DNA from: Haliclystus octoradiatus
Lineage: Eukaryota; Cnidaria; Staurozoa; Stauromedusae; Haliclystidae
Length of the DNA stretch: 64,000 bases
Reading direction: 5' to 3'
Assembly: GCA_916610825.1 (NCBI GenBank)
Contig: OU744450.1
Location: 4,800,578-4,864,577, forward strand
A model generated the notes under the pieces. The model worked only from the letters and a program-made list of their open reading frames with translations, was not told the origin of the DNA and ran no database searches. Positions 786 to 60,062 of this stretch are shown here, piece after piece. Numbering within the stretch: the first letter of the stretch is position 1; every line of letters begins with the position of its first letter. A program made the translations under genes and the position numbers.

Positions 786-825
786 CCGTCTGAAGAGCTT
801 CTTTACGCGAAACTCAGAGTAACGG
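786..825 (+). ncRNA. Hammerhead ribozyme motif, CCGU/ACGG type
   Basis: Type I layout. Helix I strand CCGU (786-789), core CUGAAGA (790-796), helix II region 797-808 (only two clear pairs), GAAA (809-812), helix III ACU-CAG-AGU (812-820), cleavage-site base A821, helix I return ACGG (822-825). Confidence 0.7.
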
Positions 826-1142
826 ACCGAACTCGTAATCTTTGAGTCATAATTTCTATATTGCTCTGCTTTTAGCATTGAGCACTCTCATTGATGTTTT
901 GAGCACTTTTAGCATTGAGCACTCTCACTCTCACTCACATTTATAATTATATATATATATATATATCCAAAAAATTTCCAGAGACCATAAAAATGTACCC
1001 TCATTAATTATCACGTCCCCATATACCAACCATACCAGGTTAGCCCCCGGGCTCTGCTGCCAAAGCAACCAAGTTTACTAAGCATGAATATTATCATACA
1101 CAATGGACGATGCACGTAAGTTTGTATGATAACTATTCTTAC

Positions 1143-1230
1143 GTTGGCAGGTGCTTTGTGCATATCTTTAACATTAAATTGAGAATGCGGACAGCTGATG
1201 ACTTTGTCTTAGCAAAAGGATGATGCAATC
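1143..1230 (-). CDS. NF1: NF1 exon 59
   Basis: 88 nt, 2 nt in, 2 nt out. SSAVRILNLMLKICTKH aligns with human VARTVRILHTLLTLVNKH. Confidence 0.9.
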
Positions 1231-1313
1231 CTAAAGATAAGATAAATAATTACATTCGAACACTTTCAATAAATCTATTTTCATGAAAGATGTACGTGTT
1301 GTTTTAGTGTACG

Positions 1314-1580
1314 TATAGCCATCTATTTATAAGAGTTGGGACACGCAACTTTGGGGGTTCGAAAATCGCCATTTTCGTTCCACTGAAAACGAGGTTTTGC
1401 TTCTGAACAAAAAGTTTTTTGAATTTCTGATAATATTTTCGCACGCTTTGCTCAAATTTCTCGAGCCTGCGTTTGACAGAACGAAAATGGTATCCATGAA
1501 AACACGTGACTGGCATATGTCGAATGGAAGCTGAGAGCGCCATAAAAGAGTGTCCCGAACCTTGTAAATAGATGGCTCTG
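1314..1580. mobile_element. hAT-type MITE (CAGAGCC family)
   Basis: Inverted ends TAGCCATCTATTTATAAGAG / CTTGTAAATAGATGGCTCTG. Same family as 18045-18328. Confidence 0.8.
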
Positions 1581-2126
1581 GGACTTATCGGTTTGAATTA
1601 ACTTCCGGTCATTTAATAAATATCCTATACTGTAACGAAGAACCATATTTATGATCGTAAATCAAGCACAAGATTTGCTTTCATGTTTCAGGACATATTC
1701 TTGAAATACTAAAGCAGACAAGCGGTACAGGATAGGCCCATGGCCAATTAAGAGTCAGTACACTTGGTAGACTTGGGTAGCTAGCCAAAAAGTCAAACAA
1801 TTTGTTTAAAGTCAACCCGGGGTGGCAACCGTGGCATTTCCAAATATCGGCTATACGAGAACGTACCATTTTTAAGGGGGGCCTTTTCCAGATGTTTGTG
1901 GAATTTTATGGCATCAATCTAGAATTTTTGAACCCTTCCTGTGTTTGATTGCAAAAAATGTCAAGGTCTTAATTGTCTCGGGTTCAGTAAAATTTACAGC
2001 CATCCCTGATTTCTGGAAACTCGTCCAACAAATATCAAACCCTCCCGGGAAAGTCAATTTAGTTGGAACAGCTTAGCATACAGTTTGCCGTGATGAGCTA
2101 ATCACTGATAAGTCAGGTAGTTCTAC

Positions 2127-2259
2127 CTTTTAATATGTGAGCAGCAAGTGCAAAATTAAAATTGGATGTAAAACTTAAACCAACAATATGATCCATTTGT
2201 TTACAAAACCAATCGATTGAATGTTCTTTTCTTACTTCCATTAAAACATCACCAACACT
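2127..2259 (-). CDS. NF1: NF1 exon 58
   Basis: 133 nt, phase 0 in, 1 nt out. [20 protein letters not shown] matches human [20 protein letters not shown]. Confidence 0.97.
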
Positions 2260-2477
2260 CTAAACACAACAACAAAACAATAAAACATTACCAATAGATT
2301 TCATTATCACACTACACAAACATAGCTGTATAATATTTCATAACATTAAATTGATTAATCAAATGTAAATGTCAGAGAAAAGTACATAGTTTCTTTTAAT
2401 ATTATTAGATGTTATCTAATAGCAAATAATATAATGCTCAATGTCATAAATGGCAGAGCTGTAAATAATAATAATAA

Positions 2478-2670
2478 TAGAAATAGAAAGGAGCCAGAGA
2501 ACACACATTCTTATCCTGTTACTTAAATTTTCATACTTTTATAGCAATCATAAGACAGAATAAACTAATTTAATAGTTCATTTCTGTCTGATGATTGCTA
2601 TGAAAGCATGCAACGTAAAGTAGCAGTGTAAGAATGTGTCGTTTCTGACTCCTTTCTATTTCTATTATTA
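2478..2670. repeat. Fold-back element, ribozyme family, decayed
   Basis: Inverted arms AGAAATAGAAAGGAG ... CTCCTTTCTATTTCT enclose the element. A family head (ATGCTCAATGTCATAAATGG then AGAGCT) lies at 2433-2461. Core bases are mutated in both arms. Confidence 0.8.
2584..2626 (+). ncRNA. Decayed hammerhead motif
   Basis: Helix I CUGU/GCAG and core CUGAUGA are kept, but GAAA reads GCAA, so it is probably inactive. Confidence 0.5.
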
Positions 2671-3401
2671 GTATTTTTTTTTATATATAAACGGGAACTC
2701 TCTACCAAAGGTTACGATGCAGTGATTATATATTTGCATGTAAGGAGACATTGTAAAATGTTCCTTCAGGGAAGTCTCTGTTGAGTTCTGGAGCGTAGCC
2801 GAAGCCCGGTGCATAACTTCCATTGCGATTCGACGAGGATGATCGAATAGAGCTTTGTGAGAATTAATAGTCTTCGAGAACATTTCGGTTCTCAACTATA
2901 AATACATTATTAAATTCATTACAAACTCATATCACGTATGTATTTTCGTAAAATTATATGTAACTCAACTCTATGTAAATATCAATATTTATGTATAATA
3001 GTACTCATCTAAATTGGGTGAATCATAAAAATCATCTGAATTGGGTGAAGTATATCAATGAACTGTAAATCCATTTGGTCCAGGATTAAGTTAAATGAAT
3101 TTCCCCGAGGGTAACTTTCAAATGGTAGTGATCTCATACAGAGACGTTCCAGTTCCAGAGCTATTTGGGAGGCTTATGGTATGCCTTTTCGAAAATGTTG
3201 GGAAATCATGGTTATCAAATACCAGGAAAGTGAACATTTTAGTGTAAAAAATGTCATGTTTTAGGAATTTAGCACCTTGGAAGCTTGAAAATTTCTTGAA
3301 CATTTGGAGATTTACTTTGTGGCAGTTGGACGGATAACGTAGGCTTACACATTACGATGGTTAATCATAATGTTATATTAAATCATAGTGATGATATTTA
3401 C

Positions 3402-3491
3402 CCTTTCATTAAATGCACCATGACCATCTAATGTACTGAGATTTTGTTCAAGTAAAGCCAAACCACAGGGGAATAAAGAGATCTCCGTTAA
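3402..3491 (-). CDS. NF1: NF1 exon 57
   Basis: 90 nt, phase 0 on both sides. ALLEQNLSTLDG matches human ALLEQNLHTLDS. Confidence 0.95.
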
Positions 3492-3655
3492 CTAAAAAAT
3501 GAACAAAGCACAACCTTAATTTCATAACATTAGAATAAATTTACGAGCAAAACAAGAGTTATAGAAATTTTGAAAATCTCTAAATTGACACGGTAAAATT
3601 CCACAAGAATCTGGAAAAGGCACTCCTGAAAATACAGTAAAGCCGATGCATGGAT

Positions 3656-3983
3656 AGCCTGCGCGCAGACCTAAATCTGTTTTTTTATGATTAGCAGGGT
3701 CTGCGTTAGGTCTGCGTAATATCGTAAGAAAGCTTGCGCTGGACTGAATCAGGGGGAGTGGATAAACGTGAGAAATCTATTCTTGGTCTATTGGTCATCA
3801 GCCAATCGCTAGCGAGTTCTGCAAAACTAGAACCAGATCGTGATTGGCTGGTGAACAATAGATAAATAATAGATTTCTCACGTTTAGCCATTCCCCCTGA
3901 TTCAGTCCAGCGCAGGCTTTCTTACGATATTACGCAGACCAGACCCTACTAATCATAAAAAAAATTGGGTCTGCGCGCATGCT
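3656..3983. mobile_element. Fold-back MITE, ends AGCCTGCGCGCAGACC
   Basis: Arms of roughly 150 bp are imperfect inverse copies (3656-3800 and 3850-3983). A likely target duplication ATGCATG flanks it. No coding capacity. Confidence 0.75.
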
Positions 3984-4120
3984 ATGCATGAAAGTCCCCC
4001 GGAATTTCAGAACACATTGGGTTGTGAATGGCCTTAATTCTATATAGTCAAGGAATTGATGACACCAATTTTGGATACGTCAAAGCAAATGATTTTTTCA
4101 TGCAGATTGGAATTTGCACA

Positions 4121-4301
4121 TACAGTGAAACCTGTATATAACGGCCAGCTATGAGAGGTAGATAAATTGACCACTATAAACAGGTGGCCTTTATATACAG
4201 GTTTTATTTAATAGAAAATACTATTTTAGACATTACAAGAGTGGCCACTATAGACAGGTGGCCGCTGTATAGAGGTGACCTTTATAACAGGTTTGACTGT
4301 A
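4121..4301 (+). mobile_element. TACAGT MITE (Tc1/mariner-like), complete
   Basis: Ends TACAGTGAAACCTGT and ACAGGTTTGACTGTA are inverted repeats starting with TA, the Tc1/mariner target. About 180 bp, non-coding. This copy and 37849-38029 define the family. Confidence 0.85.
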
Positions 4302-4751
4302 TCGACATTTTCCTTAGTCTGCGTGCAGACTAAAGCGTTTCTTAAGAGGTTCAACGTTTACACTTAAGACACGTTTTATTTTGCACGCAGGCTACAGTTG
4401 CAAATCTACAATCTGTGTAGTAGTCTAGTCCCATAGAAAAATTCAATAAGTTATATGGACGTTTTGATGGTCAGAGAGTTTTTGGAAATAGTTCAGAATT
4501 ATTCACCATGATATTCAGAACTAATTGGACTCAAAAAATATTTAAAATGTGCACCGGAACTAGTTTCAGGCTCCTATTGTTAAAACTAAGATATAAATGA
4601 AAAGACCATGGAACTAGTTATCTAGGCATTATCATTAGAATAGACAGACTGAGTTCAATATTTGTACTGTAGAGCGTTCGAGAATATTATTTGCATGATT
4701 GTAAGATAATTATTGGCAATGTGGAACCATAGTGAAACTTTTTAGTTTTAC

Positions 4752-4802
4752 CTGAAGTACTCCAATAGCAATCCAAAATAAGGCTCTGTGGTAACGTGAC
4801 TC
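4752..4802 (-). CDS. NF1: NF1 exon 56
   Basis: 51 nt, phase 0 on both sides. HRALFWIAIGVLQ matches human HKALFWVAVAVLQ. Confidence 0.94.
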
Positions 4803-4883
4803 CTAACAAATAAGAATTTAAATCCAATACATTCTGATGACACAGACAGAACATGATATTAGTTGTATAAAAATGATATATTA

Positions 4884-5051
4884 AGCCCCGGCCAAATGAA
4901 GCCAACATTTGCCAACTTTTTCACAACACCGATGTTGTGAAAATGCTGGCTTATTTGGCCACCCCAGCCAGCATTTTGCCAGCATTTTCACAACATTGAG
5001 CAAAATTTTTATCAAATGCTGGCAAAACGTTGGCTTCATTTGGCCGGGGCT
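4884..5051. mobile_element. Harbinger-like MITE with TTA duplication
   Basis: Ends AGCCCCGGCCAAATGAAGCC / GGCTTCATTTGGCCGGGGCT, 168 bp, flanked by TTA on both sides (4881-4883, 5052-5054), the PIF/Harbinger target. Confidence 0.85.
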
Positions 5052-5204
5052 TTATATGCCTACGATACTACCAGTTCACTTCTTGAATACGGAACTACTT
5101 TAAGTTCAACATCATCTCTATGGACATTATGTTGAAAAAATAACCAAAAAAAAACACAGGGCAGTGACGGCACTTTAAATACAAACCTCTTGCAGTCAAA
5201 AATT

Positions 5205-5560
5205 ATAGCATAAAATTTATACAATCCACACAAAGATGAGGCAAAAGCCTTTTCCGTTACTCGGAGTCGGAGCTTCACGCGTTTACTTTGCGTTCATCAG
5301 ACGGTTTACTACTATTATTATGCTCGGTCTTAACAAACATTGAGCACTCTCACATACATGTGTTCACCTCATATTATACTATATTATATTATTATAAATG
5401 TAAATATTATAGAATCGACACAAAGATGAGGCAAAAGCCTTTTCCGTTGCCTCATCTTTGTTTCAATCCTATATTATGCTCTGTCTTAACAAACATTAAG
5501 CACTCTCACATACATGTGTTCACCTCATATTATACTATATTATATTATTATACCATAAAA
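5205..5560. repeat. Ribozyme-family element with tail duplicated
   Basis: Two near-identical direct copies of an ~85-bp tail (TATTATGCTC...TATTATTATA; 5313-5396 and 5470-5556) alternate with two copies of a GATGAGGCAAAAGCCTTTTC segment (about 5235 and 5427). A third copy of the tail is at 34314-34374. Confidence 0.75.
5254..5304 (-). ncRNA. Hammerhead-like motif, CCGU/ACGG type
   Basis: On the minus strand: CCGU, CUGAUGA, helix II ACGC/GCGU directly next to the core, GAAG instead of GAAA, helix III GCUC/GAGU, then A and ACGG. The last base of the GAAA box is changed and helix III is longer than in relatives. Confidence 0.55.
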
Positions 5561-5956
5561 TTTAATGATTGCGTGTAAATTAAGTATTGAAATTTTGCAA
5601 ATATAAATGGTGAAAAAGCACGCAAGTAATTTCGACAAAGGGGCACCAAAGTTGAGATCCAAATACGGCTTTCAGAATACAGTACAAAATAATTGGGTTG
5701 CTGGCAGTTTTTCTTTGAAAACAGGCATGGAAATCAAAGATTATATAGTGCTTAAGGTTAAGATTCCTAGATCTGATCCGATAATAATTTTCAAATTTTG
5801 GAGCACGAATTTATAATTCTTCACAAACGTTTGATCAAAAAATATATCAACAATGTAATAAGAATTATGAATTAATCAAATGAAAGCAAGGCTACCAGAC
5901 CCCCAGGAAATAGCAGGACTGGTCCCTTTCACAAACTTTTCTCGTTCAAAACTGTT

Positions 5957-6035
5957 AAACCATAGATTATAGAATACATAGAATAGATTATAGTATTCTA
6001 TAATCTATGGTAATACTATAATCTATGGTTAAACC
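5957..6035. repeat. Hairpin of CCATAGATTATAG words
   Basis: AACCATAGATTATAGAATAC pairs with GTATTCTATAATCTATGG; a further half copy follows. Confidence 0.6.
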
Positions 6036-6406
6036 AAACTATGGTTAAACCGATGCGAGTATCATACGTCGGTATATCAACAAAAATAGCAATATAATTG
6101 AGCTCCAATATAACGAACAGCACTCAAATTAAATAGTGTTTTTAAATATAATCTTATTACGGCGAGATGTCGCATAGTTTTAACAAAGAACGTATAGTAT
6201 ATTGGACTACCGTCTCCCACGATGCACGAATGAAGCGCAAAAGTGTTTTTAACGCCAATGGTGGGCTATTGGTCAAAACGTCAATTAATAATTGTTACAC
6301 TGTCTTTATTTATTTGGTGTTCATTTGTTCAATAGTTTCTTTATTTAAATTCTCTCGCTACATTGTTTTCCGAATCTTGTAATTTAATATGAGAAAAAAA
6401 ATTAAT

Positions 6407-6413
6407 AAAAAAA
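6407..6413 (-). terminator. Pol III T-run terminator of tRNA-Gln
   Basis: Seven consecutive T on the minus strand, four bases after the discriminator base of the tRNA-Gln gene. Confidence 0.8.
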
Positions 6414-6417
6414 CGAA

Positions 6418-6489
6418 AGGTTCTACCGAGATTTGAACTCGGATCGCTGGATTCAAAGTCCAGAGTGCTAACCATTACACCATAGAACC
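6418..6489 (-). tRNA. tRNA-Gln (anticodon UUG)
   Basis: A 72-nt cloverleaf on the minus strand. The acceptor stem GGTTCTA pairs fully with TAGAACC, the anticodon loop is CTTTGAA (anticodon TTG, reads CAA), and the T arm holds GTTCAAATC. The sequence is close to animal tRNA-Gln throughout. A run of seven T follows the 3' end (6413-6407 on the minus strand) and serves as a Pol III terminator. It sits in the NF1 intron between exons 55 and 56, on the same strand as the host. Unlike the SINE heads in this window it has no attached body and every stem is intact, so I take it as a real gene. Confidence 0.96.
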
Positions 6490-6802
6490 ACGCTACTTTA
6501 TGCACAATAGTATAAGCAAATCTAGCTTCCTCGTGCCTTCAAACCACATCTTCTACATAGTTTATATGAATAGCTCCTTATCAGTTGAGACGACCTTAAT
6601 GAGTACTGCGAGGCGTTAAATGAATATTATAGTAATACTTATAAATCAAATTTGATGAAGGCCTAAAATGAACGACTCAAACTTTTGATAAAAGATGAAA
6701 TTCTATCAAGACTGTGACCGTGACACTTAGTGGCTCAATGTAAATATTATTGACTGACAAGATATGTTTGATTAATACGACCAAGGAAGAAATTCACCAT
6801 AC

Positions 6803-6883
6803 CGTTTTAAGCTGAGGTTGTAAACGTGTAAGGCACATTATGACAGCAGCGACAAGTTGGCTGTCCTGATAAATACCAACCGC
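6803..6883 (-). CDS. NF1: NF1 exon 55
   Basis: 81 nt, phase 0 on both sides. LVAAVIMCLTRLQPQL matches human LIEATVIALTKLQPLL. Confidence 0.92.
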
Positions 6884-7740
6884 CTACAAAAGACAAAATA
6901 ATAACAAGGTTACACAATGTAAATACCATGGATAAATAATAGAAGGCTACACAATAGAATTATCAATTACTTGAAACACTTGATAAGATATGATATATTT
7001 TGTCATTTTGACCGGCAAATAAAGGACACTTTACGCTATAGAAAATGTCACTTACATACAGCCTCAATCAAGAACTTAGTTAATTAAATAAAGGTTACTA
7101 ATTAAAACATGAATATGACCATATTGCTATATGCATAAATACATATGACATACAATACCAGGTTAACAACTATTAGTGTAAAGATATGTATCTAGATATT
7201 TATTAGCTACATGTAATACTATGCGAATGATTATTTTATCTATATACCGGTCTATATAAACTAATGACCGTTGCAAACAGGTGGTCCTTAACAACAGGTT
7301 TTTGATTTGGTTCATTATTGATCATAAAAAAACATAATGTAGGGAAATATAGGGAATTATATTCACAAATAGTTCCACTTACATATAACCAAACATAATT
7401 ACAAAAATAACATTGAGAGGAAAATGGATGATTATTTCAGTTAATATATTTCAATTTGCTGCCAATTAGAGCATAGACGTCATATCTATTGGTGACCTTT
7501 TTCAACTGAATTGGTATATTATTGATCTTAAAATGATGTAGGATCAATCAGTACCTAACTTAGAGCCAATATCATGCCAAAAGTTATGAAAAAATAAGAA
7601 CCAGAGCTAGTCACATGCACTTTTGTCAAGATTTACTAGCTCATCTTGAAACGAAAACGTATAATTGGTGTTTCAACAAATTTTCAAAATCGTTTTTGCG
7701 ATTCGATAACTTCATACATTTATTACAAATCTACCACAAG

Positions 7741-7915
7741 CAGGGTCCGACAAAAGTGGGGATCCTGGGATCCTAGATCCAGGAAGGCTAGACAAAATTC
7801 AGAAGAAAATTGATGTTTTCAATGATTTTCTGGTCAAACGTCAACAAGAAAATCCAGAAGAAAAAGTTTAAATGCCCTTAGGATTCCAGAAGACTGAACC
7901 TTTTGTCGGACCCTG
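7741..7915 (+). mobile_element. hAT-type MITE (CAGGGTCCGAC)
   Basis: 175 bp. Inverted ends CAGGGTCCGACAAAAG / CTTTTGTCGGACCCTG, exact 8-bp target duplication ACCACAAG on both sides. Non-coding. Confidence 0.92.
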
Positions 7916-8037
7916 ACCACAAGGTTAAATGTTAATCACACAAAATGATTACCATCGAGTGCATTTTTAAAGATAAACTTTTTCATTTCATTGTAAGCTG
8001 GTTAAACACTTATTATTATTATGATTATTAATAGAAT

Positions 8038-8275
8038 TTTTTTTATCTAATAGCAGATATTATAGGGCTCTATGTCTTCATGTGACAGAGCGGTAAATAA
8101 TAATAATATATGGTCAGAGAGTCAAAGAATACACATTCTTTACTGTTATTCAAGTTTCACGCATTTCACTGCGATTTTCAGACAAATTTTTTACTCAATG
8201 AGTAAGAAATCTGTCTGAAGATCGCAGTGAAATGCGTGAAACTTGAGTAACAGCATTATTATTATTATGATGATT
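8038..8275. repeat. Fold-back element, ribozyme family
   Basis: Arms around 8140-8187 and 8205-8253 are inverse copies. The head at 8067-8110 (GGCTCTATGTCTTCATGTGA...) matches other members. Runs of ATT triplets follow at 8256. Confidence 0.85.
8211..8253 (+). ncRNA. Hammerhead ribozyme motif, CUGU/ACAG type
   Basis: Helix I CUGU (8211-8214), core CUGAAGA, helix II with CGCA/UGCG, GAAA (8238-8241), short helix III ACU/AGU, A8249 at the cleavage position, ACAG (8250-8253). A U-U mismatch lies next to the core in helix II. The opposite arm (8144-8186, minus) has CUGAAAA and looks inactive. Confidence 0.7.
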
Positions 8276-8283
8276 ATTAATAC

Positions 8284-8398: not shown

Positions 8399-8468
8399 CT
8401 ATCAAAAACAATCAAAAGTAACAGAAATATAACTACTGTAAAGAAATGTACTTTAACATGATAAAAGT

Positions 8469-8835: not shown

Positions 8836-8928
8836 ACTGATAATTTGGTCAGAGGTTTTCGTCTGCATGGTTATATCTTCCTCTATGGGGCAACGAAGGA
8901 AAATTGCATATGTTCATGATAAACTTAC

Positions 8929-10914: not shown

Positions 10915-11040
10915 TATTTTCAAGTATTATTGAGTAAAAAATCTGTCTGAAGATCGCAGTGAAATGCTTGAAACTTGAGTAACAGTAAAGAATGTTTATT
11001 CTTTGACTCCTTCATCATATATTATTATTATTATATTATT
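10915..11040 (+). repeat. Ribozyme-family half element
   Basis: Right half only of the 8038-8275 element, nearly identical to it, ending in ATT triplets just before NF1 exon 50. Confidence 0.8.
10943..10985 (+). ncRNA. Hammerhead ribozyme motif, CUGU/ACAG type
   Basis: CUGU (10943-10946), CUGAAGA, helix II CGCA/UGCU (one pair lost relative to 8211-8253), GAAA (10970-10973), ACUUGAGU, A, ACAG (10982-10985). Confidence 0.65.
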
Positions 11041-11194: not shown

Positions 11195-11788
11195 CTAAAC
11201 AACAAGAAACAATAGTAGAGGTCATTAAAAGCGTTGTACTGATACGTCTATAGTAACATTTACTTTATATCTTTTCAATCATCAAAACAAGCTTGTCTGA
11301 CCGAATTTTTTTTTTTATATAAATGGAAACATTGAATTTTATCCACAAAAGTTTGAAAAAAAACTTTCAACTATTATGATTGAGATTGAAACTTTTTTCC
11401 TTCAATAATTTCCTAACCTTTTGACAAAACTAGTTTTCACATTCAAATCTTTTGTCGGACCTTGCAGATTAGTACACTGTTTCACCATTAATATCCCAAT
11501 TTGCTTGATGTTAGCAATAGGGTGGACTTCTAAAAAATTGAAACTCAATATTTTTACCTTAACTTGTTGTGTTAAGTGCCTTGATTAAGTTGCTGGATTA
11601 CTTCGATAAACGGATAAGTATTTTTTGAGAAATAAGCATTTGAAGGAGAATGAAAGTTAAGTGACTTTATACTGTAAAAACTCCTATCACGACAAATGAG
11701 TGCGATAAGATCATCGCAACTATCGAGCATTTGTTCGTAACAACACGATTTTCAAATATTTAGTTTTTATTACCAATACCGGTATTAT

Positions 11789-11864
11789 ACTAGCCTGCGT
11801 CACAGACCAAAACATTTTGAGAACATTAGGTTCTCAAAATGTTTTGGTCTGTGACGCAGGTTAG
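11789..11864. repeat. Perfect hairpin with ends TAGCCTGCG
   Basis: About 37-bp arms (TAGCCTGCGTCACAGACCAA ...) around a short loop at 11828. The ends resemble the 3656-3983 element. Confidence 0.75.
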
Positions 11865-12093
11865 TATTATATAATATTCTAAATAATTTGGTATTTTCTC
11901 CAACATAAGTATCTATTCTTTTCAAAAATAAGTATCCTATGATGATCATAATATGATGTAAAAATCAGAGAATACTTTTTTAATATATAGGTGTGATGAA
12001 AATCTTTAACAAAAGTAGCCAACACAGAATATGAGCATTATTGCCAGTTGTATCTTAACTTATATATTAAACTTCAGAATAAGTTTATCATAC

Positions 12094-13025: not shown

Positions 13026-13072
13026 CCGTCTCTAAGGATCGCAAATTAAATGTGAGAAACTCAGAGTTACGG
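13026..13072 (+). ncRNA. Degenerate hammerhead motif
   Basis: CCGU ... GAAAC ... ACGG and helix III ACU-CAG-AGU are recognisable, but the CUGANGA core is destroyed (CUCUAAGGA). Confidence 0.4.
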
Positions 13073-20568: not shown

Positions 20569-20652
20569 CAGATTAATGATCCAATAAGTAACCTGCTATA
20601 ATCTTCAAAGGCAATCCAAAGTAACGAAAATAAGCATAGATGCAATCATTAC

Positions 20653-20764
20653 CTGATAAAACAGTTGCAATGATTTTAATCCTTTTAAATCTTCCTGATT
20701 CTGACCAGCATATTTTGCCATGAATTCTTCAAATTTTGATCCTATTACATTTTCTTGGCCAGCA
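20653..20764 (-). CDS. NF1: NF1 exon 35 (leads into CRAL-TRIO domain)
   Basis: 112 nt, 1 nt in, phase 0 out. SKFEEFMAKYAGQ matches human SKFEEFMTRHQVH. Confidence 0.95.
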
Positions 20765-21754
20765 CTATAAAGTAGAATAAGAGCTTCTAATTTGCAAACG
20801 TATACTTTGAGATTTAAAAGTATTGAAATTAGTAAAAAGTTAGTTAAAAGTACCGAATATAAATCATTATTAATTCAGTACAAGTTCAGTAACCTTGTCT
20901 TTTTCAGTACATTTATAGTCATTTTCCAGTATTTTCAAATCCTATACTGTGTTATTGGTCACTTGTACAATGAAGGTGATTTACTTAAGCAGAGAAATGT
21001 CTATGAACATGTTCATTAGTATATCAACTGGCACATACAAAAAGAAAACATTTACAAAGAAACCTTCACCTGTTGGCATAGCATAATAAATAGCATAGCA
21101 CCTTACACTACGAATGTTGGATATATTGAACCGCTACTGAAAACATACTGGAATGGTATTGGATACTGAAACCATACCGAAATTCACCAGACACTTAAAT
21201 CTATCATTCTACTCATTCTACTGAAAAACTATTCTAAAATATCACGAAGGTTTTCTGCGATCTGATTGGTCGAAAGAGCGTGCATGAAATCCTAGGGTAA
21301 AACATGGCTCCGAAAACCGGGAAAACCGCAAGCTTCAAAAAGTTTGATTTGTGATAAAATACAGAATTTATAACACTTTGATAACAATCCAATCAATATC
21401 TCAACAATGGCTACGATTTACAAAACAACATTTAGCTCAAGATGTTTTTATTTATTGAAAAGCGTGGTAAATGAGTTATTGGTCGTGTAACATGCAAAAT
21501 AAAAACACAGAATGAAAGACAATTATAGGCTACGCTAATTCAAGGTAAACCTAAAATTTAAATAACAATTAGTGAATTAATTTGCTAAAGAACTATTGTA
21601 CCACTTATATTACAGACGTTCTTGTATATGCCTTTCTTTATTCGACAAAATCTATCTTGTTGTTGGATTCTTGGTTTATGAATTGAAATTGAATTTTAAA
21701 TTGTGATTTCGTGAATTGAGAATTCGCCCTCGAATGAGATCCCGACGTATGTTT

Positions 21755-21960
21755 TATTTTAGAAAAGGGTTACCACACGCTTGCAAATGTTTGTATTCAT
21801 ATTTACTAAACTCGAAAAAGTTGGGAGACACTCAGGAAGCTAAAAATCACTCGCTCGGAGCTCGTGATTTTTTAGCGCTTCACTCGTGTCTCCCAACTTT
21901 TTCTCGTTTAGTAAATATGAATACAAACATGGCAAGTGTGCGGTAACCCTTTACTGAAAC
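21755..21960. mobile_element. Fold-back element with ~95-bp arms
   Basis: AGGGTTACCACACGCTTGC ... GGCAAGTGTGCGGTAACCCT are the outer ends. The arms pair with few mismatches around 21857. Confidence 0.8.
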
Positions 21961-25960: not shown

Positions 25961-26068
25961 GTTTGTAGTATATCAACTAGACATTGAAGATTCAAATGCT
26001 CAAATATTTTAAATATTATTAGATATTCCATTGAACCTGTCTAGCTGGTTGTCTGAAAATAGTAGTAC

Positions 26069-28138: not shown

Positions 28139-28283
28139 AAAACATTAAATGTATGTATGTATATATATATATATAGTAGTAATATCAAGGTACTTGTGTT
28201 GTCTTTGCTGTTTCAATAGTGCTCGATGCCATAAATGCAGAGCTGTTTAATAATTAATAAACGAAAAAATCAGACATTCATAT

Positions 28284-28323
28284 TTGCTACTATTAGTTTC
28301 ACGCCAAGGCGATCATCAGGCAA
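28284..28323 (-). ncRNA. Hammerhead ribozyme motif, mirror copy
   Basis: Identical motif in the left arm, read on the minus strand (the NF1 sense strand). Confidence 0.75.
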
Positions 28324-28362
28324 TTTAATCTGATTAATCTGATTTAATCTAATCAGATTAAA

Positions 28363-28402
28363 TTGCCTGATGATCGCCTTGGCGTGAAACTAATAGTAGC
28401 AA
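28363..28402 (+). ncRNA. Hammerhead ribozyme motif, UUGC/GCAA type
   Basis: UUGC (28363-28366), CUGAUGA (28367-28373), helix II CGCC/GGCG flanked by U-U, GAAA (28386-28389), helix III ACU-AAU-AGU, A28398, GCAA (28399-28402). Confidence 0.75.
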
Positions 28403-28528
28403 ATATGAATGTCTGATTTTTTCGTTTATTAATTATATATATATATATATATATATGATCATAAAGCGCAATTGTCAATGCTCATCAATGAATAAATTAA
28501 TATATAACAAGGTACAACATCAATTTAC

Positions 28529-29788: not shown

Positions 29789-29913
29789 CCCTGCAAAAAA
29801 CCGTTCAGGAGTTCATGAACATTTCATGAACAATTCATGAACGTTAAATGGTCCCAAATTTCATGAACTGTTCATGAACTGTTTATGAACTCCTGCACTG
29901 TTTTTCGCAGGGG
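29789..29913. mobile_element. TTCATGAAC-rich MITE, compact
   Basis: Ends CCCTGCAAAAAACCGTTCAG / CTGTTTTTCGCAGGG are inverted repeats; the inside is built of GTTCATGAAC-like words. Confidence 0.8.
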
Positions 29914-33882: not shown

Positions 33883-34106
33883 TTGTAAAACGTTGTCTTA
33901 CTGATTGAACATAGGGCTCAATGCAAAATATAGCAGAGCTTAAATAATAATAGTCAGAGAATCAGACAGTCATGTCTGCTACTTGAAGTTTCACGCCGAG
34001 GCGATCTTTTTTTATCTGTTTTTTATCATTGAATAGATTGCCTGATGATCGCCTCGGCGTGAAACTTCAAGTAGCAAACATGACTGTCTGATTCTCTGAC
34101 TATTAT
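33883..34106 (+). mobile_element. Fold-back ribozyme element with 15-bp target duplication
   Basis: Flanked by exact 15-bp copies of TAATAATAATATCAT (33868-33882 and 34107-34121). It is inserted inside a CAGAGCC-type MITE (33693-34213) whose two halves continue on either side. It contains the family head (GGGCTCAATGC) and inverted arms. A target duplication this long fits retrotransposition better than a cut-and-paste transposon. Confidence 0.82.
34038..34077 (+). ncRNA. Hammerhead ribozyme motif, UUGC/GCAA type
   Basis: UUGC (34038-34041), CUGAUGA (34042-34048), helix II CGCC/GGCG, GAAA (34061-34064), helix III ACU-UCA-AGU, A34073, GCAA (34074-34077). The left arm lacks the CUGAUGA box. Confidence 0.75.
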
Positions 34107-37314: not shown

Positions 37315-37626
37315 TACAGTGAAACCTGCATATAACAATCAGCTACGAGAGGTAGGTAAATTGACCACTATAGACAGGTGGCCTTTATATACAGGTTTGA
37401 TTCAATAGAAAATACTATCTTAGACATTGCAAGAGTGACCACTATAGACAGGTGGCCTTCATATACAGGTTTGATTCATTAGAAAATACTATCTTAGACA
37501 TTGCAAGAGTGACCACTATAGACAGGTGGCCTTTATATACAGGTTTGATTCAATAGAAAATACTATTTGAGGCATCGCAAGAGTGACCACTATAGACAGG
37601 TGATCGTTATAACAGGTTTGACTGTA
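37315..37626 (+). mobile_element. TACAGT MITE with internal triplication
   Basis: A 74-bp internal unit is present three times in tandem (starting 37375, 37449, 37523; the next boundary is 37597). Confidence 0.88.
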
Positions 37627-52031: not shown

Positions 52032-52455
52032 CTGAAAAGCCAAAGTCAATGAGACACAAGTGTTGGTCAAATAACAAGACATTATCACATTGATACAATC
52101 AAAATTACTGGTCAGTTTGTACAAGTCTAACCTTGTTAAAAACTAGAAGTTTAGCCTGGATCACTAATCCAAGTTTGGATTACAAGGAGATTAACAGTAC
52201 TAGTCAATTTAAACAACAATTCGTTGTTCATCCTATAGACAAAGTGTGAAAAATAGTCTGGAAAATAAGCATTTTTATGACTTCCTATTGAATTTCAACA
52301 AATAGGGCTGATATAGGGGTTTGTTAGAGTATAAATAGTCTGAAACATGTCAGGAAGGTGAGAACATTCTTGCTTAAAAAGAAAAGGGGCAATAGTACAC
52401 TTAATTACCACAAATACTGTATACAATTCAGATATGCTAGTGTAATAAATAGCAA

Positions 52456-52560
52456 TACAGTGAAACCTGTATATAACAGCCGGCTAAGAGAGGTAGATAA
52501 ATTGACCACTATAAACAGGTGGCCTTCATATACAGGTTTGATTCAATAGATAATATTATT
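52456..52560 (+). mobile_element. TACAGT MITE, left half
   Basis: Starts TACAGTGAAACCTGTATATA; truncated after GATTCAATAG. Confidence 0.75.
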
Positions 52561-52770
52561 TCATTACCACACTAGAATCGCAACGTGTTTTCAATGACAT
52601 AGTTACTGTTTACGAAATTCTCAATGGTTTAGTTGAAATGGATATTATAATAGAGATACATAGAAACCATATTCGAAATATCTGTCAAGATCACAATTGA
52701 CAACAAAATGTGATTTCTCGAAATATTAATTTTTTTATGGGATTTGTCTGGAACAAACTATCCAAGTCTA

Positions 52771-52917
52771 CAGCGGTCACCTGTCTATAGTGGTCACTCT
52801 TGCAATGTCCAAAATAGTATTTTCTATTGAATCAAACATGCATATAAAGGTCACCTGTTTATAGTGGTGAATTTATCTACCACTCGTAGCTGACCGTTAC
52901 ATACAGGTTTCACTGTA
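52771..52917 (-). mobile_element. TACAGT MITE, inverse orientation
   Basis: Ends ACAGGTTTCACTGTA. Lies 210 bp from the opposite-orientation half at 52456-52560. Confidence 0.78.
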
Positions 52918-52993
52918 TTATGCCTGTATTAACCATTTGAGTTAAAAAATAAAAATAAATATATAGTAGAAAATTGAATCAGCAATGACTTAC

Positions 52994-53097
52994 CGGACAC
53001 AGAAGAAGTAACATGATTTGTAAAGGCCATGTATGTGTTCTCTTTTTAGAAGATTCAGAAAACGTATCGACCAATAGAAACATTTTCTCGCTGGAAT
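52994..53097 (-). CDS. NF1: NF1 exon 3
   Basis: 104 nt, 2 nt in, codon boundary out. THTWPLQIMLLLLCP matches human AAVWPLQIILLILCP. Human has a single exon where this gene has exons 3 and 4, so an extra intron splits it here. Confidence 0.93.
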
Positions 53098-53388
53098 CTG
53101 AAAAAGCATATATTGAAAATTGTTAGAAAACATGGTATGTTAGCAATCAAAGCAGTGACTGACAAAAACTATCTGGAAACTGAGTTCGGTCTGATGCAAC
53201 CAATTTTGATCATCATTCCCAAAAAACATTTAGAACATCTTGTAAATAGACACAATTGACCCTGCTATAGCAACCACCTGTTTATAGAGGACACCTGTCT
53301 ATTAGCAATGCCAATAATATCATTTTATTAGTAATATATATTTGTGAATCAATCATGTATATTTTGTACATCAGTTTTCAGGGTATAA

Positions 53389-53502
53389 GCCCTGTGAAAA
53401 ACAGTTCAGGAGTTCATGAACAGTTCATGAACAGTTTATGAGCGTTAAATGGCCCCAATTTTCCTGAACTTTTCATGAACTCCTGAACAGTTTTTTTGCT
53501 GC
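53389..53502. mobile_element. TTCATGAAC-rich MITE
   Basis: Ends CCCTGTGAAAAACAGTTCAG / CTGAACAGTTTTTTTGC. Confidence 0.75.
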
Positions 53503-53672
53503 GGGAAATTCAAAATCTTTTTAGGATCTTCGGAATAAAAAAGCATGTATGATTATGGGGATGACCCTGGTCAGATTAAATAAACACATAAAAATGGTGA
53601 TTCGTGATTTGTATTGTGCAGTTGTATTAAGGCCTTACTAATGCTAATATTATACATATAATATTATCTTAC

Positions 53673-53748
53673 CTGCAAGATTACAGTCCTGCTCTTTATA
53701 TAGTGCTGCAAATTCATCAGGGAATGTCTCAATCCAATTCCAGATAAC
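53673..53748 (-). CDS. NF1: NF1 exon 2
   Basis: 76 nt, codon boundary in, 1 nt out. VIWNWIETFPDEF matches human AFWNWVENYPDEF. The length is the same as the human exon. Confidence 0.93.
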
Positions 53749-54022
53749 CTAAACGCGTCAATAATAATACATCATCATCATCATCATCATCACTTATTAC
53801 AAAAATATGTTTATTCAAATTTTCAAATCTCGCTATTTTCCACATTCTTGGAAAGAGCTTTTAATTTTACTCCTTTTAAAATATGGAGAAAACTAAAAAT
53901 CTTCCAACTACAGAGGAATAATTCCCACTAACCATCTAGTTAGTAAGTGCTGTAAGTTAAAAGTAAGTGCTTCAAAAGTTGTTTTGCCTCATGATAAATG
54001 GAAGACTGAGAAAATGTTTTGA

Positions 54023-54706
54023 TACAGTCAAACCTGTAATAATGGTCACCTCTATACAGCGACCACTGTTGACGCGTTTTCTGTTGCCATTAGGTAATGT
54101 TTCATTGTGATTGATTGCATTCATCATATTGTCTAGTATTTCAATAGTTATAATTTGTGCTTTGTATTATGTGGAATTTCTTGCTGTCTGTTTTGTGGTA
54201 GAGTTCTGTGTTGAACTTGTTTCAAGTTAGTTCTCGACTAGCCATCGTCACATCAACATGTCGCTTGAACTCAACATTCCTCGCCTTTGAGTTAAGTATT
54301 TCATAGAAACTGACTCTTAGCTTAGAAGTATTCGCGTAACATGATTTTGGGTGTTACTGTTATTTATTATCTTATTTTGTATAGAATAAGTATTGAAGAT
54401 GTTATAATTTAGTCCATGTCAACGGCTAGCCTGATGACTTTTGTCGCCTCCTAAATTGATTTGTTTAAAGGAATTCGATATACAGTCCTCTTAATGTCGC
54501 CTTCGTTCAAGTTCTTCCTCTAGACAGCATTTTAGGACATTTAGTTATCACAGGAACCGTTCACAGCCACATGTCTATAGTGGTCACTCTTTCAATGCCT
54601 AACTAGTATTTTCTATAGAATCAAACCTGTATATAAAGGCCACCTGTCTATAGTGCTCAATTTATTTACCTCTCGTAGCTGGCTGTTATATACAGGTTTC
54701 ACTGTA
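54023..54706 (-). mobile_element. TACAGT MITE interrupted by a solo LTR
   Basis: MITE parts 54023-54066 and 54566-54706, both ends intact. Confidence 0.82.
54067..54565. mobile_element. Putative solo LTR (499 bp)
   Basis: Begins TGTTGAC, ends TTCACA (TG...CA rule), flanked by ACCAC / GCCAC (4 of 5 match), inside a MITE. No coding. The matching internal retrotransposon is not in the window. Confidence 0.65.
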
Positions 54707-54943
54707 TAGGATTTTTGTAGTCTAGTTGAAATAAATCGTCTAATGATCACCTTCTTGTGTGAAAATTGAAGTAGCGTAATCCTCGCTTGCTTCATTTTTG
54801 ACTCTCGTTCTATGAATGTTTTGATTTGTCTTGCCTTACTGGCACACACGTTTCAGAATTGTTTTTTCTCGGGCTTATGCTTTGTTCAAACTCTTACAAT
54901 AGCTATAGATCCAAATAGTATTATTTCAATCAAGTCCACTAAC

Positions 54944-55011
54944 CTTGTCTAATGACTTGACCAATGCCAATTGAGAATGTTTCTTTAAACCCTTGAAATA
55001 TTTTGTACATT
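54944..55011 (-). CDS. NF1: NF1 exon 1 in window
   Basis: First recognisable exon, 68 nt. It enters with 2 nt of a split codon and ends on a codon. Peptide YFKGLKKHSQLAL matches human FKFKALKKVAQLAV. The length equals the human exon starting at c.587 (from memory), so about 195 residues are missing upstream. Confidence 0.9.
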
Positions 55012-55099
55012 CTGAAAATAGAACACACAAATTAATTAACAAATTTTTATGGCTTTAGAGAATTAGAGAATTCATTGCTGTGAGGAGACTATGTTGATG

Positions 55100-55710
55100 G
55101 CACAATTTGCAAAACTTTTACAAGATTAGTCTGCAAAAAGACCACCTTTTGAATTCTAAGGAGAGCCTGGAATAGATGCTGGTGCTATCAAACTGGAATT
55201 TGTCACCAACTTGAAAAACGATGCTGGCATTAATTAGCTGTTTAAAGAATCACAACCAACGACTAAGAGAAATGTTCCCCTAATGTAGCACAAATTACTA
55301 GAATCTGGAATCAAGCCGTGGAGCTAATTGTAGGGCTGAGCCAGCTGGTGAAGAGACAGTAGATTCTCAATCAGTCAATTTTGATTTGGAAATTACAAAA
55401 GCAATGTATCATGTAATTTCAATGAAAACGTCTGGCTGTATCAGAGAAAGTGTAGAGTTTATAACTCTAAGGAGAACCCGTCTATGGCACGACGGGGTAA
55501 ATATTTACAAGGTCAGCCTTGCGAAGAAAAAGATGCTACAAAAAAGACTAACTGTTGAATTCCAAAGAGAGCCTGGGATAGATGTTGGTGCTTTAAAATC
55601 ATTATTTACAAACTTCATAGATATGGGAATTGATCGGCTGTTCGGACAATCACCGATCCAGTTGAGATATTTAACCATTTTGAGTGCTCATAATAGTGTA
55701 TAGAATAATT
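55100..55710 (+). pseudogene. HECT-domain fragment, duplicated
   Basis: RLTVEFQREPGIDVGALKSL (55545-55604) with LRRTRLWHDG before it and IDRLFG after it matches the start of HECT E3 ligase domains (RxxLWED ... EFxGEPGIDAGGLRREF). A second, more broken copy (FEF*GEPGIDAGAIKLEF) lies at 55120-55210. The catalytic cysteine region is missing, so both are dead pieces. Confidence 0.72.
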
Positions 55711-56061
55711 CCAGGAAAAATGTATTGACATATAAAATTGTTGAGATCAATCTTACAACAACAACGAAGATGAGAGGCTAACATAATGGAGCTTAGACAG
55801 AATTTATTAAACTCAGCCATTAAGCAGTTTATGTACTTCGGTATTGACATTGGTTCAATGTTATGGGACAATGTGCTGTTGACTGCTGTACATAAGCTGT
55901 CACTTCTTCAGTTTGTCAAAAAGATTTATACCTTGTTTTCATGTTCAGCCTATGAATAGGGAATTTTATAAACAGTTCTTAGAAAAACAAGTACAAGAAA
56001 TAAGATGTTGCTATCATGGTAATAAATTTGAAATTAAAAATCAATTTTAAAATATTACTTT

Positions 56062-56170
56062 AGTATATTTGTCTGGTGACTGCGCTAAGCATGAAACTAT
56101 TAGTAGCAATTTCATGAATGTGTAATCTTTGACTACTTTTATTATAATTTGCTCTGTCAAATGATAATTT
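56062..56170 (+). repeat. Ribozyme-family fragment
   Basis: Motif and tail only. The motif at 56069-56109 has helix I UUGU/GCAA and GAAAC but core CUGGUGA, so it is likely dead. Confidence 0.65.
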
Positions 56171-56853
56171 TGTCCACGCTGGTGCTACAAAAGACATGGA
56201 AAATCGTTGATCATGCTGTACAATGTACATGTCGCCAAACAGAACAGAAAAAGGATAGCAAATATGAATAAAAGCAAACTGGTGGTATCTATGACCGTCT
56301 TATCTACATCAGGTGAGATATTTTGCATGATTAAGTGTTCTTGCTATTTGCAGATAAAATTAAAAAGTTTTACAATTCACAAACATTTTATATTTTTACT
56401 GCTATTCTATCTGAAAACAATATTAGTGTAACAACAGAATCAGAGATTCTCAACAACAATCTGAGCAACGGCTGATTTGTTTTTAATCTCGTTCAGTTTA
56501 TTTCCAGTGAGTATGAAGCTAGGAAATACATTGAAAATAAAACATTTCATGTCCCTCCAGTCAGCACCTTACTTGGGACCTCAGGGACATCCACTGGTAA
56601 AGTTGGCTATTTTCAGTATGTCCCAATATAAGTTGTACTTTCTTAATGATAATCTATTTTCTTTTATTCAATAGAAACTTATTCTCTTCTAAACACCTCA
56701 AGTCAATTTCTCACTGATCTTTGTAATGGATCTGAGCTTTCTATTCAAAATTCCCTAATGGCGAATTAAATGTTTACGACACAATTACCATGCATCTTTT
56801 TCAGAGAAAATTACAAGCGTATTTGAAAACTATGTGTTATTAAAACATCCAAC

Positions 56854-57482
56854 ATGCATTTACTATTTTTAGCAATGGAGCTGCATCACAGTATAAAAAT
56901 TTCAAAATTTCTGCAATTTATGTTATCATGAAGATAATTTGGGTTGCTTAGCCGAGTGGCATTATTTTGCTACATCTCACGAAAAAAATACCTGTGATGG
57001 CGTTGGGGGGGACCATGTAACGTCTGGCAGGTAAGGCAAGCCTCCAATGAACTGTTCACAATCATATTTTAACTCCACGGCATTTTTATGATTTTGGAAA
57101 AGAAAACGTACAAGATGTAGCATTTGAGTACGTAACCAAAAAGGAATGGGATGACAAATGTCCCAGTCAAGAGAAACGATTTAATAATGCAAATACAATT
57201 GAGAGTACACAGAAATTGCATTCCTTTTTACCATCGGGAGATAAAACCTCCTTGACAGTTAAGCCGTATTCTCTATCAACAGACGAATCCACTGTATATT
57301 TTATTAACACTGTAAATGAAATACAGCTGAAGGAAATAAGAGGATACATTACATTAAATTATGACGAACAGTGGTTCTTAGCATGCGGATTAGAAGTGAT
57401 CGACGATAACTATGAAGTACGAGTTACATGTTTACGACCACCTTGGCCGGCAGCATCATTCGGCTATTCACACTCTTGCTAA
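56854..57482 (+). pseudogene. Transposon-type protein, decayed
   Basis: Reads FSNGAASQYKNFKNFCNLCY, then AEWHYFATSHEKNTCDGVGG, a frameshift in a G run (57005-57011), two stops, and an open end (57216-57482) with ITLNYDEQWFLACGLEVIDD. I recall this arrangement (DGAASQYKN ... HGKSPCDGIGG ... DxxWW) from repetitive genes in invertebrate genomes, probably transposon-derived. The enzymatic role is unknown to me. Confidence 0.7.
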
Positions 57483-58011
57483 TCGATTCCAGAATCTGCA
57501 ATCCTGTTAGAGTCCTTTTATTTATTTATTTTATCTGTTGACCAATTTGTTGAAGTGGGTCATAATGAAACTTAATCTCTTTGTGAACTTGGACAAGATC
57601 TAGTCTGTGAAATTAAAGATTTCTGCTAATCTAGGTAGGTAGGTGGGTAGGTAGGTAGAAAGCTTAGGATACAACCCAGCTATGTCCGCAAAGAATTATA
57701 GATAATTACTAAAGGTTTGGTTTTTAACTGTTTGTACACTGAACGGATGATGCAATGTTATGTCCATGGTCGACTGCACTTGAACATAATGATTCACATG
57801 ATTCGTTTACACTGTTGCATTACATAGTCATTATATTTCAAAGAATGGGCATGAATAGACATGCCCATTTCGTCTAATTGGTGTTACACCCCATATTGGA
57901 TTCCACGTTGCCATATTTTACGCTGGCATGTGAGCTGATTTAAATGTATTGACCACCATGTCTCCTTCGCTTCATTTATAATTGTCCTTGACTTCAGAAG
58001 ATAATTAAAAA

Positions 58012-58120
58012 GAAACAACTCATCAGTGTCAATTGTGCGAAAAACAATTTACAAAGGCATTCACTCTAGCCAGACATGTCAGAGAAGCTTATCTCGTTGT
58101 GATTATCTCAGAACTCATGC
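58012..58120 (+). pseudogene. Degenerate C2H2 zinc-finger fragment
   Basis: HQCQLCEKQFTKAFTLARHV has the C-x2-C-x12-H spacing of a C2H2 finger. A second finger-like stretch CDYLRTHAVVCK follows in a shifted frame. Probably the same dead element as 56854-57482. Confidence 0.6.
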
Positions 58121-58487
58121 AGTTGTTTGCAAAAGATCTTTATCTAGAGTCGCGGTTCGGACGACATCTGAATTAGTTGAAGTGCCTGTTCAAGAGAGTG
58201 AAAATTTAAATCAGCAAAATATTGATTGCAACTTTCAGCAGAGGATACTACCTCAAATGACATTGTCATGGTAGATGATTTGAAGGATTTTCTACCAAAT
58301 TCTGACAATACACCCCCACCCCACCCCCCCAACTATTATTTGGATATAAAAGCTTCAAAAATGAGATGGATACCATCCATGACAAGGTAAATTATTTTAT
58401 TCCATGATTAGATCCATTTGTCTTTACTGTGAAAAAAATGGATGGTCGATTGATTTTTTATTTAATTTGATTTGTAATATATGTTCC

Positions 58488-58578
58488 AGAGGAAGAGAAT
58501 AATGTCATTGATGCTCCTTTCGATCCAGAAGATGCTGCATTAGCCTTGTTTGCAAATAAGATAGATATGCTATGATAG
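58488..58578 (+). pseudogene. Acidic coding-like fragment
   Basis: Open stretch VPEEENNVIDAPFDPEDAAL then FANKIDML and a stop. Not recognised; likely part of a transposon-derived gene. Confidence 0.3.
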
Positions 58579-59575
58579 ATATAGTGGGTCCTGGAGAAAC
58601 ATAATCTCTTTGTGAACTTGGACAAGATCTAGTCTGTGAAATTAAAGATGCTGCAGATTTTAGTAGGTAGGTAGGTAGGTAGGTAGGTAGATAGATAGAT
58701 TAGGATAATTCTGGTTTCATTAGCAAAATATTTCAATTACTTGTCTTTCAGACATTATTCATTAGCATTATCCAAATTTCATTGTGTTGCCTCTCATTGG
58801 TAGCCTATAATCTTATTACTTTATTCTAGTGACTGTTCTAGAACCTTTCAATAATACTCTATTCTTTTAATAATTCTAATCATCTGCTTGCAGTTAAAAA
58901 CAAGCTAAATCGCTAATATCATTTGAGTTCGTTTTAAGTGGCTTACACATGGTTTTGTTAGAATTTTTTGTAAAGTTTAGATAAAATTATTAGTACAAAA
59001 ATCTAATGACATCTTCACTAACGCAGTTAACATTCCATCAAAATTTAAAAATATCTATATGAAGGTTTGACAACCACAGTGGAAAGAGATTGGCAGAGAC
59101 AAGATTATTGGATGCACTAACCCATGATCGTAAGTATTGTTGTAATAGCATTATCCACATTGACTGTGCTGCAAATGAAGTTGAAGTCTTCATGGGTACA
59201 CTTGTTAAAGAAAAAAAATGGATTTGAATTCGCATAATCAGAGTCAGCATTCTGGAATCGTGGCGACCTAAGTACAAAAAAGCAGTACAGTTGCTATCGT
59301 CAACGATGGAGCAACTTTTGCGTATCAAGGCAGATCAATTCATTACTAGCAACCAAACTGATGGATAACATTTTCTTCACAGGATAAAAATGAAATCGTC
59401 TGCAGCTTTGAACGCGTTGCTATCAATTTACACTGCAAAATGATCAAATAACTTTTGATTGATGTATTGGTGTGATTCGTACAATTTGCGCATGCGCATT
59501 GAAAATACCTTTGACATGCAAAATTTGTTTGAATGATTTCAATAGCTCGTAAGTGACCAGAAACATTGTCAAACA

Positions 59576-59579
<4 letters not shown>

Positions 59580-59626
<47 letters not shown>
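59580..59626. repeat. (TA)n microsatellite
   Basis: About 23 TA units without interruption. Confidence 0.95.
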
Positions 59627-59629
<3 letters not shown>

Positions 59630-59909
59630 AAATAAAATAAATTGCACATCATTTGCACTAAATATGATCTATTGAATAAAAAGTCTGAACTCATTTCCAA
59701 ATGTAGACATGAGAATAAATTTTACCTAACTAATTATAAATCCGTGAAAACATAATATATATTTTCTAATTTATTTATGCAGTGATAACTAACCAAGCGA
59801 TAATAGGAAATAACAACAATGCAATTTATTTCTAGCATCAAAATCCTTTGTTCTGTTAAACAATAACTGTAGGTTTGTAAATCGATATAGGCGGAACTGT
59901 ATGTTTTTC

Positions 59910-60062
59910 ATTAATTAGTTTATTTGTCTGATGATTGCGTAAGCATGAAACTATTAGTAACAATTATGAATGTGTAGTCTTTGACTCCTTTTATTATATT
60001 TAGCTCTATCAAATGATATCGAGCACTATTTTTTGCTATTAGATAATATCTAATATATATAT
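59910..60062 (+). repeat. Ribozyme-family element, right half
   Basis: Carries the motif, then the family tail ending TATTAGATAATATCTAATA next to a TA run. Confidence 0.8.
59924..59963 (+). ncRNA. Hammerhead ribozyme motif, UUGU/ACAA type
   Basis: UUGU (59924-59927), CUGAUGA (59928-59934), helix II UGC-GUAA-GCA, GAAA (59947-59950), helix III ACU-AUU-AGU, A59959, ACAA (59960-59963). Confidence 0.75.

Follow-up and report, generated by a model that had tools for sequence, protein, structure and literature searches.

Type I hammerhead ribozymes are defined by a core of the form CUGANGA ... GAA ... UH. The newt satellite hammerhead is one known system, and among Penelope-like elements (PLEs) those with a GIY-YIG endonuclease comprise the Penelope/Poseidon and related clades. 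Small PLE hammerhead variants that cleave as dimers were reportedly described by Lunse et al. in 2017. Here, we analyze a 64-kb window of the Haliclystus octoradiatus genome (C6:4800578-4864577, contig OU744450.1; host genome of 261,861,806 bases; positions below are those within the window) and report repeated motifs that are most probably small type I hammerheads, predicted to be ribozymes, in the 3′ region, or pseudo-long terminal repeat (pseudo-LTR), of a large and diversified group of endonuclease-containing PLEs.

Passages of PMC11167929 describe a PLE protein that cleaves AT-rich DNA on both strands at ATT and initiates reverse transcription within the RNA; the optional tail is the stretch between two such start sites. 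In the same passages, the PLE hammerhead cut solely in the presence of protein, and insertion in vitro did not depend on the ribozyme. For rotifer PLEs, passages of PMC3846280 ascribe head-to-head copies and palindromic junctions to self-priming, and passages of a review state that PLE hammerheads usually lack helix III and possibly self-cleave through dimers (PMC7761336).

The elements described here are a new, rich member of this known kind. With the small dimer-cleaving PLE hammerheads they share a reduced helix III and the association with a PLE, to which we add comparative evidence for a helix III formed by two copies; here, the helix III segment is a self-complementary unit of 8-9 nt with a covarying inner pair, and a U-U at 10.1/11.1 predominates. 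They resemble GIY-YIG PLEs in the GIY-YIG-type fold of the C-terminal part of the open reading frame (ORF) and in tandem and head-to-head inverted copies, as well as in a mostly one-ended tail, AT-rich insertion sites and a hammerhead within the pseudo-LTR region (PMC3846280, PMC11167929); here, the motif follows the ORF end by 105-159 bp. Two kinds of 3′ end, AT-rich sites and head-to-head copies fit published PLE behavior. Animal type I retrozymes share the type I layout, AT-richness and small repeats, but passages of PMC7229834 present them as tandem repeats that encode no protein and have canonical helices as well as loop contacts, whereas the motifs here lie at the ends of coding elements, head-to-head or single. 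The newt satellite hammerhead, which uses a dimeric mechanism, likewise offsets a weak helix III by two copies; it resides in satellite DNA and is linked to no PLE ORF in the passages of PMC6155905, whereas the present motifs are PLE-linked. Among search listings, nothing pertinent appeared on hammerheads in combination with palindromes, foldbacks, sponges or snap-back priming.

Hammerhead motifs are linked to a Penelope-like ORF

An earlier note on this DNA had listed eight hammerhead motifs and suggested a Penelope-like or retrozyme origin. All eight are where it placed them, strand included, each with an intact type I core (8/8), and the observation of repeated hammerhead motifs is confirmed. 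They are not independent copies: 707-746/786-825 and 28284-28323/28363-28402 are each the two arms of one foldback, so the eight sites represent six loci. A strict descriptor (CTGANGA-N6..24-GAAACT-N2..6-AGTA) yields eight matches in the window, none in 100 dinucleotide shuffles and two in total in 300 simulated 64-kb windows. In the host genome (262 Mb), the same descriptor gives 5,418 matches, compared with 17 for a reversed control pattern, and these span about a dozen subfamilies, as judged by eye. An arm-profile search of the window recovered 16 arms at 11 loci (weakest E 0.034), including five loci beyond those noted earlier (2516-2626, 5254-5304, 13026-13072, 54736-54777 and 56069-56109) where the motifs are decayed or altered; in the additional arms found by the profile, the core is decayed or altered or the motif is incomplete. 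Among 257 Gb of bacterial and archaeal contigs, a narrower pattern had a single match; this match (L001) sits within a 904-aa ORF, leaves helix I unpaired by eye and was dismissed as coincidence. A scan of viral contigs for the motif returned no matches.

A physical link connects the motifs to sequence of a Penelope-like ORF, in agreement with the suggested origin. The copy at 59.6-60.1 kb carries the last 38 codons of the element ORF, 92% identical over 38 aa to the ORF of a copy elsewhere (L060). A relative of this ORF was modelled with a GIY-YIG endonuclease fold in its C-terminal part, the domain by which such PLEs are recognized. While the window copy is truncated near 59645, other copies continue into the ORF, and open frames of 721-743 aa around some ORF matches leave room for a reverse transcriptase. 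Among sampled loci, a hammerhead arm lies 105-159 bp downstream of an ORF fragment, on the same strand, in seven of eight cases. Copies in the window end at TA or ATT microsatellites. The earlier note had missed this linked ORF, as well as the facts that the sites are foldback arms and that the helix III segment covaries as a helix between copies.

Helices I and II covary around a fixed core

Intact copies consist of CUGANGA, a short helix II, GAA, the helix III segment, an A where cleavage is expected and a helix I of 4 bp. Three covarying helices surround the core in a fold that is open at helix I, and helix III measures 2-3 bp in a monomer. The covariation of helix I noted earlier holds: when each of the 11 loci contributes one arm, 43/44 pairs are standard, versus a mean of 37.2 with permuted partners, and 43 was reached in 0/20,000 permutations. 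In an alignment of 12 arms covering helices I, II and III, 90.9% of cells are paired (79.1% when shuffled), the covariation score is 0.497 (0.241 when shuffled, at most 0.134 with partners slid) and changes occur on both sides in 7/11 pairs, a signal lost on sliding partners. Kinship among copies inflates these figures, and we therefore put more weight on the number of distinct pairing states: CCGU/ACGG, CUGU/ACAG, UUGC/GCAA and UUGU/ACAA in helix I; CGC/GCG, UGC/GCA and CAC/GUG in helix II. One-sided changes in helices I and II of the window produce G-U six times and A-C never.

The covariation persists in a larger genomic sample of 77 strict matches (a few counted twice owing to overlapping loci), which supports the earlier proposal of a minimal type I hammerhead whose fold is kept by selection. 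Helix I pairs 1-4 are standard in 75, 71, 68 and 64 of the 77, and pairs 5-7 in 8, 31 and 27: pairing fades beyond pair 4. The U-U mismatch reported beside the core in most copies is indeed present at six of the eight sites and in 52/75 strict matches, with G-C in 12 and A-U in 4. A simple long hairpin, in which the core pairs with the helix III side, was rejected from the listed folds alone: its registers vary among copies and the core is fixed.

Several observations weigh against the hammerhead reading. The covariance-model check that the earlier note had proposed failed: no Rfam hammerhead model matched 82-131 bp pieces, either at gathering score or at E up to 10 (E up to 5 in one run). We do not consider this miss decisive, as those models, run without a proven PLE hammerhead as positive control, probably represent hammerheads whose helices are fuller. 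When single motifs were folded by energy, non-hammerhead pairings were preferred in 7/7, one of the five measures on the 12 arms (further pair types) stayed at chance (12 versus 11.5, 257/500 shuffles), and the bias among one-sided changes is slight in the larger set (12:8 in helix I, 14:9 in helix II). Cores or helices are broken in many copies. Such broken copies and the energy folds of single motifs would suit inactive relics, with a hammerhead shape selected in an ancestor and now merely inherited by a spreading element, as would the insertion in vitro of Anolis PLE hammerhead mutants reported in passages of PMC11167929. We nevertheless regard relics as unlikely: subfamilies differ in all three helices yet stay paired, including pair 1-3 of the helix III loop described below, and subfamily F is young. 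Its 40 scored copies (of 1,502 candidates) are 98-100% identical, which implies that it moved recently, and the core is intact in 6/6 sampled copies, including one with a change in helix I.

The helix III segment probably pairs between two copies

The earlier note gave all eight motifs a 3-bp ACU/AGU helix III; this stands except at 8211 and 10943, where a 2-nt loop limits the monomer to 2 bp. By subfamily, the segments read ACUC-A-GAGU, ACUA-A-UAGU, ACUU-C-AAGU and ACUUGAGU, and the sequences include ACUCAGAGU, ACUAAUAGU, ACUUCAAGU and ACUAUUAGU. In intact window copies, the segment self-pairs with a second copy over its full length with at most one central mismatch, while a fourth pair within one molecule would need a 1-nt loop. 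Because the segment is self-complementary across subfamilies and a 4-bp hairpin with a 1-nt loop is impossible, it points to a dimeric hammerhead. Positions 1 and 3 of the loop form a pair in 57/60 three-base loops, Watson-Crick in 54 and G-U in 3. Counted by distinct combinations of helix II and loop, they pair in 34/37, where base frequencies predict 19.8. For the segment alone, hairpins were computed at +2.1 to +2.9 kcal/mol and duplexes at −3.4 to −7.4 kcal/mol in 5/5 tested. A hammerhead completed by two copies appears the simplest reading of the segment, and this comparative evidence favors the dimer form.

The same self-complementarity could reflect a palindrome at the DNA level, such as a protein-binding site, since most segments are near-palindromic as DNA too. 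We give this only a small probability: ACUUGAGU (subfamilies B and C) and loops with U-G pair only if G-U is allowed, which DNA does not use, and the segment is placed exactly between GAA and the cleavage site.

Copies are mostly head-to-head, usually with a one-ended tail

Both tandem and inverted copies, the pseudo-LTR layout, are found. Among the 150 ORF copies listed, 34 neighboring pairs lie within 7 kb: 23 are head-to-head, one is tail-to-tail and 10 are tandem, seven of the latter spaced 2,516-2,519 bp. Head-to-head orientation in 23 of 24 inverted pairs has a chance of 1.5e-6 under equal odds. The short arms form 56 close pairs: 32 head-to-head, 14 tail-to-tail and 10 with both arms in the same direction. 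Hairpin 1 of the tail is on exactly one side in 22 of the 32 head-to-head pairs, the optional tail on one inverted end that characterizes PLEs, on both sides in 6 and on neither in 4; five of the six both-sided pairs come from one tangled cluster (L032). In this cluster, at 3798-6186, A- and F-type foldbacks lie side by side and in part recur about every 525 bp.

In each of the five window foldbacks, the arm without a tail stops at or within the AT-rich tract, mostly of ATT repeats, that comes before hairpin 1, and in the 8143-8253 foldback the stretch preceding the ATT tract is likewise missing (both by eye). Arms of one element are 74-99% alike, and arms of different elements at most 71%, except for the close pairs B-C and F-G. 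The foldbacks are the short, 5′-truncated end of the series of head-to-head PLE copies. At seven window sites, hairpin 1 keeps an outer GCTC/GAGC stem around a variable inner stem (UGC/GCA, UGUC/GACA or UAUC/GAUA).

Could the units instead be non-LTR retrozymes, which are small circular-RNA retroelements that carry type I hammerheads, encode no protein and are mobilised in trans? An ORF search found no remnant at 10/11 window loci, which favors them over a PLE, and animal retrozyme repeats of 150-450 bp carry type I hammerheads according to passages of PMC7229834. This origin is improbable all the same: the units belong to an ORF-bearing element, helix III is minimal and only 10/56 close arm pairs run in the same direction, a count made without a systematic search for direct tandem repeats of short units. 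Palindromic MITEs (miniature inverted-repeat transposable elements) or other DNA transposons, with long terminal inverted repeats bearing a hammerhead-like sequence by accident, would account for the window foldbacks, whose arms are 84-100% complementary and several of which adjoin TA runs. Matching inverted repeats at both ends were not found, the tail differing in 22/32 pairs; the foldback axis varies between the two sampled F foldbacks, each element's arms resemble one another most and the element is attached to a PLE-type ORF, all of which makes such transposons very improbable. Chance matches to a loose motif, which alone gives 4.4 matches per shuffled window versus 11 observed, are refuted by the strict-descriptor counts in shuffles and in the genome and have next to no probability. 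MicroRNA precursor models of Rfam on the foldbacks scored below gathering thresholds and were read as long-hairpin effects.

Features of the window and neighboring sequence

Features of the PLE copies, in window coordinates
Feature	Coordinates	Strand	Basis
Hammerhead motif, subfamily A, foldback arm	707..746	-	descriptor match
Hammerhead motif, subfamily A, other arm (identical)	786..825	+	descriptor match
Foldback, arms 667-763 and 769-865, 96% complementary	667..865	.	
Hairpin 1 of 3′ tail, one side only	863..883	+	
Decayed hammerhead motif, subfamily H, left arm	2516..2558	-	arm profile
Decayed hammerhead motif, subfamily H, right arm	2584..2626	+	arm profile
Hairpin 1 of 3′ tail	2436..2459	-	
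Hammerhead motif, subfamily I, A-U at 10.1/11.1, longer helix III segment (duplication-like)	5254..5304	-	
Hairpin 1, inverted relative to adjacent motif	5322..5345	+	
Decayed hammerhead motif, subfamily B, left arm; altered in core and helix III	8143..8185	-	
Hammerhead motif, subfamily B	8211..8253	+	descriptor match
Hairpin 1 of 3′ tail	8067..8091	-	
Hammerhead motif, near subfamily B, single arm	10943..10985	+	descriptor match
Strongly decayed hammerhead motif	13026..13072	+	nhmmer E 0.034
Hammerhead motif, subfamily D, left arm	28284..28323	-	descriptor match
Hammerhead motif, subfamily D, right arm	28363..28402	+	descriptor match
Foldback, arms 28250-28336 and 28350-28436, 100% complementary	28250..28436	.	
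Hairpin 1 of 3′ tail, left side only	28221..28243	-	
Partial hammerhead motif, subfamily E, left arm that has lost its 5′ part	33976..34006	-	
Hammerhead motif, subfamily E	34038..34077	+	descriptor match
Hairpin 1 of 3′ tail	33916..33939	-	
Decayed hammerhead motif, subfamily J	54736..54777	+	arm profile
Hammerhead motif, one core change, near subfamily F	56069..56109	+	arm profile
5′-truncated PLE copy, subfamily F, between TA runs	59639..60055	+	
Last 38 codons and stop of element ORF	59639..59755	+	92% identity to L060 ORF over 38 aa
Hammerhead motif, subfamily F	59924..59963	+	descriptor match
Hairpin 1 of 3′ tail	60003..60024	+	
Hairpin 2, near-palindromic 3′ terminus adjoining TA run	60037..60055	+	

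Elsewhere in the genome, a Pfam GIY-YIG match lies in a 792-aa frame at C2:28187357, which belongs to a different element; the arm profile had no match within 1.2 kb on each side of this frame. Both flanks of the element (C2:28184100-28188800) contain a CUGAAGA...GAAACGU stretch in the same direction (L058 1046, L059 154), in which helix I pairs at 6/7 positions, helix II, 5 bp by eye, comes after a single unpaired U and the helix III segment consists of the 4-nt self-complementary ACGU. Rfam gave no match to this flank motif, which from its sequence may represent a further and more divergent hammerhead of PLE type, situated in direct pseudo-LTRs.

Within the window, an exon at 20606-20874 (-) resembles neurofibromin (E 1.7e-4), and further short minus-strand frames nearby look exon-like by eye, so introns of an NF1-like gene may harbor several of the elements. 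A tRNA-Gln (TTG) is encoded at 6418-6489 (-; Rfam, 70.5 bits). Inverted repeats in which no hammerhead motif was seen, at 3709-3940, 11783-11871, 21787-21930, 29799-29906 and 52454-52919, are probably unrelated foldback elements; some match microRNA models below threshold. A dispersed repeat with ACCTGTATATA-like stretches occupies 37362-37621, with 74-bp tandem units at 37362, and similar sequence occurs at 26065, 37846, 52454 and 54613.

A possible role for paired hammerheads

Helix III would be shared by two hammerheads, placed either in tandem within a transcript or on separate transcripts, and the cut would fall after the A preceding the 3′ strand of helix I, resolving multimeric transcripts into units. 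The PLE protein would prime reverse transcription on cleaved AT-rich DNA, with two start sites for priming, the end of the tail hairpins or an internal (AUU)n tract; hairpin 1 is a possible candidate for a reverse-transcription start or a protein site. Priming on both target strands, or self-priming, could then produce head-to-head copies with a tail on one end only. A bolder proposal, which we hold to be distinctly unlikely, is that helix III owes its retention to joining two RNAs of the element, with the RNA dimer as the insertion template and each cut target strand priming on its own RNA: one strand would prime at the tail-hairpin end, its counterpart at the internal (AUU)n tract. Paired RNAs as two templates are conjecture only; if true, a dimeric hammerhead would explain the head-to-head copies and the one-ended tail together.

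Why PLEs retain hammerheads is an unsettled question. The 5,418 strict matches in this genome suffice to read a selected structure from covariation, and the layout of the copies, head-to-head with a mostly one-ended tail, would link RNA dimers to the odd insertion products of these elements in a way that can be tested.

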